Positions 6,166 through 37,931 of a stretch of DNA of 42,381 nucleotides are shown in pieces (within the stretch, counting starts at the first letter, position 1; every line of letters begins with the position of its first letter). Source of the stretch: an uncultured Myxococcales bacterium (lineage in GTDB: Bacteria; Myxococcota_A; UBA9042); the NCBI GenBank assembly GCA_903869075.1, contig CAIPXZ010000537.1:1-42381 (forward strand), written 5' to 3'. The position numbers were made by a program, and so were the translations under genes. The notes beneath the pieces were generated by a model. That model was given only the letters and a program-made list of their open reading frames with translations. It made no database searches and was not told the DNA's origin.

Positions 6166-7439
6166 GGCTTGTGACCGTGGCGGCGCTTGGCGGCTTTGGC
6201 GCCCTTGCTGGCCTTGGTCGCCGGCTCGGGCTTGGCCGGCTTCTCGGCCTCCACGCGCTGCCGCTTGGGCGCCGCCTTGTCCGGCAGCGGCTCACACAGC
6301 TCCGCCAGCGGCTGGTTGGGCGACACCTTGGCCAGCGCCACGTGACCCTCCGCCAGTGCGTCCACCACCAGCGCGTGCGCATCCTGCACCGCCTCGCCGC
6401 AGACCATGTCCACGCGCAGCGCCGTCTGGATCGCCGCCTGCCACTGGCCCGCCTTCAGCTGCTTTTTCGCCTCGCGCAGCCAGATCGACTGCGGATCCGC
6501 GTCCTTCTCCGCGCTCTCCGCGCCCTGGCCCTTCAAGCGCTTTTGCCGCAGCGCCTGCCGCTCCGTGGCACCGCTCGCCAACTGCTGCGCCGCTTCCTCC
6601 GCGCGCGCGCACGCGGCGGCATTGGGCGCCTCGCGATCGGCTGGCGCGGCGTCCGCTTTGCCCTCACACAGCGCCTGCAGCTGCCCCAGGTCGTGCGACA
6701 GGAACGCGCGCTCCGCCAGCGGTTGCCAGCTCAGCTTGCCGCCGTCCACGTGCAGCGCCTGCGCGGTGCGCTGCCAGGCGACGACCTCGCCGAACTGCCC
6801 ATCGGCAAACCGCGCGCTGGCGATCGCCACCACCGGCATCGCCGGCCAGCCCGTCGCCACCAGCGTCCCCCACGCCGCGCCATCGTGGCCGGCTTTTTGG
6901 CGTTCCGGCGGCAGCGTCTCCGGCTCGTGGTGCGCCTCGGCAAACGCCGCTTCCGCCTTGCGCTCGCCCGGCCACGCCGCCACGACGACCAGCTGCTTGC
7001 CGGTGGCCCGCGCGCGGTCGGCGTCCGCCCGATCCACCGCCTTTGTGCACAGGCAGACTTCCCCCACCACCGGCGGCTCGCCCGGCTTCTCCGGCGGCAG
7101 CGTGATCTCCAGGCGCTTGCCGAGCGCGCAATCCGCCGGCAGCTGGTCGGCACAGCTCGTCTGCGGCACCAGCGTCCCCGCCTGCGCCCCGGACGCCAGC
7201 CGCCGCGGCAGCTGCGGCAGCTGCGGCAGCGCATCGCCCAGGGTCTGGCCCGCGGGCAGCGTCAGCGGCGGCTCAGTCGCCACAACGGTCGGCGGCGGCG
7301 GCTCTGGCTCACTCGGCGCGGCGACGGCCTGCGCGCTCGGCGGCTTCGGCGGCGGCGGCGGTCGATCGCACGCCGTCAGCGCCAGCGCGCCCACCAGCAC
7401 CAGCTTCAAGTTGGCAAATTTCGTCATGATTCTCCGCAT
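6162..7439 (-). CDS. Predicted lipoprotein with Pro-rich N-terminus and Lys/Arg-rich C-terminal tail
   Basis: Signal-like MTKFANLKLVLVGALALTAC lipobox (ATG at 7427 is an alternative start); PPPPPKPP; stop overlaps the start of the TMTC-like gene (ATGA). Confidence 0.7.
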   Translation of the reverse strand: MRRIMTKFANLKLVLVGALALTACDRPPPPPKPPSAQAVAAPSEPEPPPPTVVATEPPLTLPAGQTLGDALPQLPQLPRRLASGAQAGTLVPQTSCADQLPADCALGKRLEITLPPEKPGEPPVVGEVCLCTKAVDRADADRARATGKQLVVVAAWPGERKAEAAFAEAHHEPETLPPERQKAGHDGAAWGTLVATGWPAMPVVAIASARFADGQFGEVVAWQRTAQALHVDGGKLSWQPLAERAFLSHDLGQLQALCEGKADAAPADREAPNAAACARAEEAAQQLASGATERQALRQKRLKGQGAESAEKDADPQSIWLREAKKQLKAGQWQAAIQTALRVDMVCGEAVQDAHALVVDALAEGHVALAKVSPNQPLAELCEPLPDKAAPKRQRVEAEKPAKPEPATKASKGAKAAKRRHGHKP

Positions 7440-7451
7440 CGTCGGTCCCGT

Positions 7452-8027
7452 TCAGTCCCAGTTGCGCACCAGCGCGTGGCGCATCGGCTCGCCGCGGTGC
7501 GGCAGCGGCATGCCCATCGGCACCAGATCGTCCACGCCCGCGCCCAGCTTCGCCTCGCCGCGCAGCAGGCCTTCCTCGACAAAACCCAGGCCGGCGTACA
7601 TCGCCCGCGCCGCCGTGTTAGTCGCGTGTACCTGCAGCGCCAGTTTTTCCAGCAGCGGATTTTCCTGCGCCCAGCGAATCGTCTGGGCCATCAAGCGCTT
7701 GCCCACGCCGCGACGCCACCACGCGCGCACGACGCCCACGCTCATCGTGCCGACGTGCCGCGTGCGCCAGAGGTGGCCGCCGACGATGCTGCACAGGCCG
7801 ATCACCTGACCGTCCGCCGCCACCGCCAGCACCAGCACGCTGTTGGATTGGTGGTGAAAGCGGCCGATAATGTCGCGCTCAACTTCGACCTGATCGTCAA
7901 AATCTTCAAGGCCTTGCAGCAAAAACTCGGTCTCGCCAAAGATCTGCCGCTTGAACGCGCACAGCGCCTCGGCGTCGGCCAGACCGGCGGGGCGAATGGA
8001 ATAGGCGTCGTCCGGCGGTGCGCGCAT
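7452..8027 (-). CDS. GNAT family N-acetyltransferase
   Basis: 191 aa; SVGVVRAWWRRGVGKRLMAQTIRWAQ...LALQVHATNTAARAMYAGLGFVEEGLLRGE, GNAT motif A/B pattern. Confidence 0.88.
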   Translation of the reverse strand: MRAPPDDAYSIRPAGLADAEALCAFKRQIFGETEFLLQGLEDFDDQVEVERDIIGRFHHQSNSVLVLAVAADGQVIGLCSIVGGHLWRTRHVGTMSVGVVRAWWRRGVGKRLMAQTIRWAQENPLLEKLALQVHATNTAARAMYAGLGFVEEGLLRGEAKLGAGVDDLVPMGMPLPHRGEPMRHALVRNWD

Positions 8028-33246: not shown

Positions 33247-35778
<2,532 letters not shown>

Positions 35779-35817: not shown

Positions 35818-36348
35818 ATGAATTTTCAAAGAGCGCGGTGGATCGCGGCAACCGGCGTGGTGCTGGCGGCGCTCGTCGCGGCGCTGGCCTTGCGGTCGCC
35901 GGCGCACGAGGCCAGCGGCAAGGAAGGCGAGGTCGTGGCGGATTTTGAACTGCCGCGCATCACCGCGGCAGGCGTCGAGCTGGCGACAGTGGACGGCCCG
36001 GCGAACCACCGCGGCAAGCCGTTCCTGCTGCACTATTGGGCGCCGAGCTGCGGGCCGTGCCGCGCCGAGCTGCCGCTGTGGCAGGCGCTGGCGACGCAAA
36101 GCGGCGCGAATTTCACGGTGCTGACTGTCGCGGGCGATGACGCGGCGGACGTCACCGGCTACCTCGCGGCGCAGCACATGACGCTGCCGGTGGTGTGGGA
36201 TGACAGCGGCGCGGGCCACCGTGCGCTCAACGTCTGGGGCATCCCGCACACGTTTGCCATCAGCCGCGCGGGCGTGATCGTCCGCGACCTCGAGGGCGCG
36301 CAATCGGCGGCGACGCTGCAAGCCGCGCTGGCGGCAGCGAGCCGCTAG
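35818..36348 (+). CDS. TlpA-like membrane-anchored thioredoxin-fold protein
   Basis: N-terminal hydrophobic anchor; FLLHYWAPSCGPCRAELPLWQAL CxxC motif; WGIPHTFAISRAG cis-Pro region. Confidence 0.9.
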   Translation: MNFQRARWIAATGVVLAALVAALALRSPAHEASGKEGEVVADFELPRITAAGVELATVDGPANHRGKPFLLHYWAPSCGPCRAELPLWQALATQSGANFTVLTVAGDDAADVTGYLAAQHMTLPVVWDDSGAGHRALNVWGIPHTFAISRAGVIVRDLEGAQSAATLQAALAAASR

Positions 36349-36354
36349 CCGCGG

Positions 36355-36972
36355 TCACGTCTCGATCGCCACCGTCGCCACAACGATCAGGTCACCCTCC
36401 ACAGTGGTGCCGACGATGAACACGTCGATGTCCGGCGACAACCCCCACGGCGTCTTGGGCCCGACCCGATAGACGTGCAGGTAGCTGAGCTGCGACGTCA
36501 GGATTTTCTTGAGCTTTTGGAATTGCGGCGCGCGCGCCTTCTCAAAATCCCCCCACCAATCCTGCGGCTCCACGTAGGGCTGCAGCAGCTTCGTCAGCGT
36601 CAGCGACTCCACCGCGCGCTGCGCCAGCGGCAGCGTCTGCGGCCGCTGCACGTAGATCGGCGCGACCTTCGCCTTGATGTTCCAGGCCGTCACGTGCGGC
36701 GTACCGGCACCCGGCAGGACAAAGACCTGCAGCGGGTAGTCGGACTCGCTCGTGTAGAGCAACCCCGACGCGGCGGCGGCAAGCTCCGCCTGCACCGTCG
36801 CTGTCGGCGCGCGGTGCGCCACTGTGGTGGCAGTCAGCGCCGGCAGGGCGACGGCAAACGACGGCGCGGCGTCCACAGCGGCAGCATCGGTCGCGCCAGC
36901 ATCGGCCGCCGGATACGCGGTTGTGGTACAGGCCGCCAGCAGCGCCGGCAGCAGCAAAAAGAAGCGGGACAT
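36355..36972 (-). CDS. Lipoprotein with nuclease A inhibitor (NuiA)-like domain
   Basis: MSRFFLLLPALLAACTTT lipobox; SGLLYTSESDYPLQVFV, EPQDWWGDFEKARAPQFQKLKKILTSQL, VYRVG...DIDVFIVGTTVEGDLIVVATVAIET match the NuiA family pattern as I recall it (GLL..SESEYPFEVF, QDWYEDEE...FQKL, DVYVIGET..GNL.G..TKVVET). ORF upstream of 36972 rejected as extension. Confidence 0.78.
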   Translation of the reverse strand: MSRFFLLLPALLAACTTTAYPAADAGATDAAAVDAAPSFAVALPALTATTVAHRAPTATVQAELAAAASGLLYTSESDYPLQVFVLPGAGTPHVTAWNIKAKVAPIYVQRPQTLPLAQRAVESLTLTKLLQPYVEPQDWWGDFEKARAPQFQKLKKILTSQLSYLHVYRVGPKTPWGLSPDIDVFIVGTTVEGDLIVVATVAIET

Positions 36973-37052
36973 GGGCACCTCCAGACGCGCAAACGGGCGC
37001 GCACAGAGGTATTCGGGCGGGCGGGGATTTTGCCGCGGCAAGAAGCGCCGAA

Positions 37053-37931
37053 TTATTTGCCGCCGACGCATTTTTGCCCGGGCGTCAGGCACTGCCCGCC
37101 CGCCGACGCGCAGTCGACGCACGTGTAGCCGCTGGCGCATGCGGGCGCGCAGCCGGTGCCGAGGCACGGCGCGGCATACGCGGCGATGGCCTTGCCGGCT
37201 TGCTGGGCGGTGCAGGCGCTGTCGTAGCTGTGGCCGTCGCAGCCGCAGATGGGCGAAAATTGGCCAGCACAATCGATGGGTTTGGGCTGGCATTTGCCGA
37301 GCGTGAAGCCGCAGCCGGTGTTGTCGCACCAGGTCGTGGCGCTGCAGTCGGCTTGGGTGGCGCAGGCGGTGGCCGCGACGGCGATGTCCGCTGGCACGTC
37401 GGGCGCGACTTCGCCGCCGGTGTCGCCGCTGTCGGCGGGCGCATCGCTGGTGTCCGTGGCGTCGGTCGGCGTGGCGCAGATGCTGGTGCGGGCCGGGTCG
37501 ACGTCGGGCGCGTCGGTGCACACGCCATTGGATCCCCACATATTTTCGAGGCAGCCGGTCGCAAAGCCGTTGTCGGTCGACCAGCGGTAGCCGATGAGCA
37601 CGCCGCTGGCGTTGAACCACCAGGTCTCGCCGACGTAGCCGCTGCGGCCGTACACGAGCGTGCCGCCGTCGCTGCACGGAACTTCGCCTGCTGACAATGG
37701 AAAATCATAGCAATAGGTCTGCGCCGCGGTCTTGGCTTGGGCAATCGTCGTCGTCAGCGGCACCTTGGTCAGCGCCACCAGCGGGTGGCTGCACGGCGGT
37801 ACGTCCAGCAGCGCCACGTCCTGGTCGTCCAGCGCTTCCACCACAGCGGCGTCATCGGTCGCCGTCGCCTGCGCACCGCAGCCCAGCAGCGCCAGCGCCA
37901 CGCCCATCGTCCCCAGCCATCGCCGCGCCAT
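37053..37931 (-). CDS. Lipoprotein with Kazal-like protease inhibitor domain
   Basis: MARRWLGTMGVALALLGCGAQ lipobox; C-terminal CAGQFSPICGCDGHSYDSACTAQQAGKAIAAYAAPC fits a Kazal-type pattern; Asp/Thr-rich linker; Cys-rich C-terminus. Confidence 0.75.
   Translation of the reverse strand: MARRWLGTMGVALALLGCGAQATATDDAAVVEALDDQDVALLDVPPCSHPLVALTKVPLTTTIAQAKTAAQTYCYDFPLSAGEVPCSDGGTLVYGRSGYVGETWWFNASGVLIGYRWSTDNGFATGCLENMWGSNGVCTDAPDVDPARTSICATPTDATDTSDAPADSGDTGGEVAPDVPADIAVAATACATQADCSATTWCDNTGCGFTLGKCQPKPIDCAGQFSPICGCDGHSYDSACTAQQAGKAIAAYAAPCLGTGCAPACASGYTCVDCASAGGQCLTPGQKCVGGK

Follow-up and report, generated by a model that had tools for sequence, protein, structure and literature searches.

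The locus described here raises the question of what a NuiA-type nuclease inhibitor would do on a lipoprotein, whose nucleases it would meet there, and whether a second lipoprotein with a Kazal-like module, encoded next to it, shares in the task. Both genes lie in a window of 42,381 nucleotides, by which we mean the whole stretch of DNA that was analysed. The genome holding it (G000) is a draft MAG of 6.27 Mb in 806 contigs, 89% complete, and its named relatives are uncultured Myxococcales MAGs whose isolate names suggest a freshwater habitat. The two genes were found on the minus strand exactly where an earlier note on this DNA had put them, at 36355..36972 (NuiA-like lipoprotein, 205 amino acids) and 37053..37931 (Kazal-module lipoprotein, 292 amino acids), and the lipobox signals that it had claimed were seen in both (LLAAC, Cys15; LLGC, Cys18). 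The Kazal-like gene sits upstream of the NuiA-like gene across an intergenic gap of 80 bp (36973..37052), and the two are probably co-transcribed. A Shine-Dalgarno-like GGAGG precedes both start codons, the ATG of the NuiA-like gene being preceded by GGAGGTGCCC and that of the Kazal-like gene by GGAGGTGGCG. On the plus strand, a TlpA/AhpC-TSA-type thioredoxin gene (35818-36348) converges on the NuiA gene 6 bp off its 3' side, and beyond it lies an M1 aminopeptidase gene with HEAT repeats (33247-35778), also convergent. The latter is thus downstream of NuiA, past the thioredoxin gene, and not upstream as had been stated. As a partner for the Kazal protein the aminopeptidase is unsupported, being on the opposite strand with the thioredoxin and NuiA genes in between. 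The thioredoxin and aminopeptidase genes stay near NuiA in the congeneric loci read (L014-L018).

The NuiA-like protein begins with a signal peptide and lipobox, MSRFFLLLPALLAAC (36928..36972, minus strand, as are all features of both genes), which places the predicted lipidation site at Cys15, without Asp at +2; the linker that comes next is rich in Ala and Asp and leads into a C-terminal domain. M1 and LAAC are invariant across six congeneric proteins. At 89.5 bits (E = 2.9e-25), the domain (amino acids 60-205; 36358..36795) passes the cut-off of the Pfam profile PF07924 (NuiA), which is 22.1, and the protein matches Anabaena NuiA (PDB accession numbers 1j57 and 2o3b) by sequence at an E-value of about 5e-13. 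Confidence in the AF2 model is modest (pLDDT 60.5), but the one PDB structure that it matches significantly is 2o3b_B (E = 6.8e-11; TM 0.81 on the target).

The residues of Anabaena NuiA that contact NucA, which we take to be the hot spots Glu24, Asp75, Trp76 and Thr135, all have retained equivalents in the alignment. These are Glu76 (36745..36747), the predicted active-site plug; Asp138-Trp139 (36556..36561), part of a QDWW motif invariant in the genus; and the C-terminal Thr205 (36358..36360). The Glu76 equivalent, its SES motif and the C-terminal ET do not vary across 12 divergent NuiA domains that represent both branches of the tree described below. Throughout the Myxococcota, the Glu24 equivalent is present in 43/44 NuiA domains showing the position (bin8340 included) and the C-terminal Thr in 42/43 complete proteins, a single paralogue (G105a) with SQT and a C-terminal ER being the exception at both. 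This copy (L091), with Gln for Glu24 and Arg for the terminal Thr, has an intact NuiA copy elsewhere in the same genome. Two further proteins (G184 and G315) end in WT instead of ET. The Asp75-Trp76 equivalents are missing in several lipoprotein NuiAs (e.g. G037 and G044), and targets may therefore differ across the branch. The gene is under purifying selection, with a dN/dS of about 0.15 for the closest pair of relatives. No match was found in phage records by tblastn, and no confirmed relative in IMG/VR contigs.

The lipoprotein NuiA occurs in all five genomes of the genus. Of the nuclease family expected as its target (PF01223), no gene was detected in G000, which leaves the protein without a candidate partner from its own genome, nor was one detected in the four congeners. 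Since these are draft MAGs, any single one may have such a gene that went unseen, but that all five should is hardly likely. Because no NucA-type nuclease was detected in these genomes, a foreign target is the likeliest, and we consider that the gene product is probably an envelope-anchored inhibitor of NucA/Serratia-type nucleases, most likely foreign ones. The earlier note had suggested protection from enzymes of self, predators or competitors; the part concerning foreign nucleases fits the genus, whereas an own nuclease is at odds with the detection of PF01223 in 0/5 genomes. A nuclease of another family could also be the native target.

We infer the following course of events. The protein would be exported, lipidated on Cys15 and tethered at the surface through its Ala/Asp-rich linker. 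By homology, the folded domain would then place Glu76, together with Thr205 at the C-terminus, before the active site of a DNA/RNA non-specific nuclease of the NucA/Serratia (beta-beta-alpha-metal) type; Anabaena NuiA is thought to present the equivalent residues to the active site of NucA. The enzymes blocked would be those delivered or secreted by other organisms, be they competitors, prey or predators. As a result, DNA at or near the surface would be protected, or nucleases would be kept from crossing the envelope. The upstream lipoprotein would display a degenerate Kazal module, for which a protease-inhibitor role is possible.

The distribution of NuiA in related bacteria shows two forms of the protein. 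At class level, 13 of 52 genomes carry NuiA and 3 a PF01223 nuclease. The corresponding numbers for 379 Myxococcota genomes are 43 and 32, the two occurring together in 11 genomes versus 3.6 expected (p = 2.5e-4). This signal is largely carried by leaderless pairs, and the excess of nuclease-bearing genomes outside the leaderless branch is not significant (5 versus 2.6, p = 0.16). The N-termini of 45 NuiA matches were classified: 34 possess a lipobox by a rule that we set ourselves and two (G122 and G344) by eye, six are leaderless (G376, G293, G371, G342, G373 and G212), and three (G017, G238 and the second copy of G068) are not assessable. A lipobox is therefore found in 36/42 assessable Myxococcota genes versus 0/8 from cyanobacteria, where all eight N-termini examined are leaderless. 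A PF01223 gene lies within about 2 kb on the same contig in all six leaderless cases versus 1/36 lipoproteins, in the lineage G005 (Fisher p about 1.3e-6 by hand, or 1.6e-6 with 1/35, a value which overstates the independent support because the linked cases are related by descent). A quick tree built from 49 NuiA domains shows a single change of leader state (SH-aLRT 87). In seven of nine cyanobacterial plasmid regions, the neighbour that converges on NuiA encodes a DNA/RNA non-specific endonuclease, and no endonuclease neighbour is listed for the pCC7120gamma and Nodularia regions. The nuclease-adjacent cytosolic context is a trait of the leaderless branch and not of the NuiA domain family, and the window protein does not share the traits of the Anabaena prototype (cytosolic, leaderless and beside a nucA-type gene).

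Additional N-terminal regions were seen in some other lipoprotein NuiAs. Those of L096, L097, L102, L094, L020 and L109 resemble duplicated helix-hairpin-helix repeats, and in the three that were scanned (G122, G028 and G296, from other families) HHH_3 is matched weakly between lipobox and NuiA domain (E about 3e-5, under the curated cut-off). The NuiA lipoproteins of L082, L087 and L089 share one related N-terminal region, with a DUF6748 match in the scanned member (G243, L089). Perhaps, and we put this forward tentatively, the leaderless branch is an antidote travelling with a NucA-type nuclease, and the membrane-anchored, mostly orphan form of the Myxococcota is an envelope shield against foreign nucleases, the nuclease counterpart of MliC-type lysozyme inhibitors, which in some proteins is joined to helix-hairpin-helix or Kazal modules.

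The Kazal-like protein opens with MARRWLGTMGVALALLGC, a signal peptide and lipobox ending in LLGC (37878..37931), with Cys18 invariant in four relatives. Next come an uncharacterised Cys-containing domain without a Pfam match (amino acids 47-138; 37518..37793), the Kazal-like module (214-256; 37164..37292) and a Cys-rich C-terminal tail that is strongly conserved in the genus (257-292; 37056..37163). With 22.8 bits, Kazal_1 (PF00050) is slightly over its cut-off of 21, and Kazal_2 (PF07648) just misses its own (22.6 versus 22.8), a marginal result in both cases. The Kazal motif proposed earlier is thus borderline by profile, and the six-cysteine pattern and a suitable P1 residue are not there: C2-x7-C3-x10-C4 is kept, C5 is absent, an extra Cys occurs in CGCDG, and P1 is Gly in all four aligned proteins. 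Gly at P1 is unfavourable for serine protease inhibition. Since C5 is absent as well, protease inhibition by this protein is doubtful. Full-length homologues were found in the genus only, where the gene is under purifying selection (dN/dS about 0.14 for the closest pair of relatives). The AF2 model (pLDDT 41) is too poor for use, and a literature search for Kazal proteins in myxobacteria returned nothing relevant.

Several other explanations of the NuiA lipoprotein deserve attention. It might confer periplasmic immunity to the bacterium's own exported nuclease on its way across the envelope, the nuclease having since been lost by the genus. This would agree with the neighbouring lineage G005 (L029, L021), in which an exported PF01223 nuclease with a DRGH motif is encoded 78 bp ahead of, and in the same orientation as, a lipoprotein NuiA that groups with those of the genus in the tree, just outside it (SH-aLRT 85). 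The tandem links lipoprotein NuiA to the class of enzyme expected as its target, and the co-occurrence of NuiA with PF01223 in the phylum points the same way. However, that co-occurrence owes most to the leaderless pairs, with no significant excess outside them, and the genus keeps NuiA under purifying selection with no PF01223 gene detected in any of five genomes, so own-nuclease immunity appears unlikely to us. The lipoprotein might instead guard DNA held at the surface, in an eDNA matrix or during uptake, rather than the cell itself. The HHH_3 stretches of its relatives in other families may hint at DNA binding, but such repeats may bind protein instead and the window protein has no helix-hairpin-helix domain by Pfam; we regard surface-DNA protection as improbable. 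A NuiA fold re-used for another role, such as generic envelope binding, would agree with the absence of a detected target nuclease in G000, and PR-1-like folds have other roles elsewhere. Re-use is nevertheless very unlikely given that the Glu24 and C-terminal Thr equivalents are strictly kept, with their joint loss in one paralogue only. An anchored inhibitor of foreign nucleases is thus the reading that we prefer.

The remaining explanation is that of a true dual inhibitor operon, the two lipoproteins blocking nuclease and protease together; the earlier note had spoken of a possible inhibitor pair. The Kazal gene precedes NuiA in 4/6 congeneric loci (G000, G036, G033 and bin8340), and adjacency and order are kept there even though identity between the Kazal proteins has fallen to 54-60% in most comparisons. 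In addition, Kazal_1 (29 bits) is fused to NuiA (22.9 bits) in one distant lipoprotein (G329, L112). Yet in the other two congeners the gene is not beside NuiA, G034 having no homologue and G035 having one on another contig. Kazal modules are also frequent, with 2-5 matches per genome of the genus and up to 8 elsewhere in the phylum; the G329 genome holds 8 Kazal_2 matches, and the fusion may therefore be module shuffling. Together with the Gly at P1, the missing C5 and the unusable model of the Kazal protein, this leaves a dual inhibitor operon with little likelihood in our judgement, while a joint function of the two lipoproteins is possible; adjacency and the fusion speak for the pair, and the commonness and degeneracy of the module against it. 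Where relatives have the Kazal gene, G034 has between rpoC and NuiA (L017, about 6650-7860) frames that by eye resemble a nucleotidyltransferase/HEPN-type pair.

If the window protein does inhibit foreign nucleases from the envelope, bacteria would use anchored inhibitors to guard their surface against extracellular nucleases, in the way that some guard theirs against lysozyme, and nucleases would be a real threat or weapon outside cells in freshwater communities. No paper on a lipoprotein NuiA was found in the literature searched, most subscription journals being outside its scope. The protein is directly testable, since its target class can be named, and the exported nuclease and lipoprotein NuiA of G005 are a ready test pair.

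Of the known systems, the closest is NuiA of Anabaena, which is described as inhibiting competitively, at a site overlapping the one for DNA (PMC5758888). The window protein shares with it a homologous domain (PF07924; 1j57, 2o3b), a predicted common fold, the hot-spot residues and the exact C-terminus. Unlike the cyanobacterial proteins, which are leaderless and mostly encoded convergently with a nuclease gene, it is a predicted lipoprotein from a genome in which no PF01223 gene was detected. The G005 protein also has a lipobox and groups with the window NuiA, just outside the genus, but its gene comes immediately after that of an exported PF01223 nuclease, unlike the gene of the window NuiA. 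With Kazal-type inhibitors (PF00050, PF07648) the neighbouring lipoprotein has in common the C2-x7-C3-x10-C4 spacing and a PxCGxDGxxY core; it differs in the lack of C5, the extra Cys after C3, the Gly at P1 and the marginal score. In its proposed role, and with no homology claimed, the NuiA lipoprotein is best compared with the lysozyme inhibitors MliC/PliC (PMC2267010) and with SliC, a surface-displayed lipoprotein (PMC6033465). These too are envelope inhibitors of a foreign hydrolase, and in some cases lipoproteins, although it is lysozyme that they target and not a nuclease.
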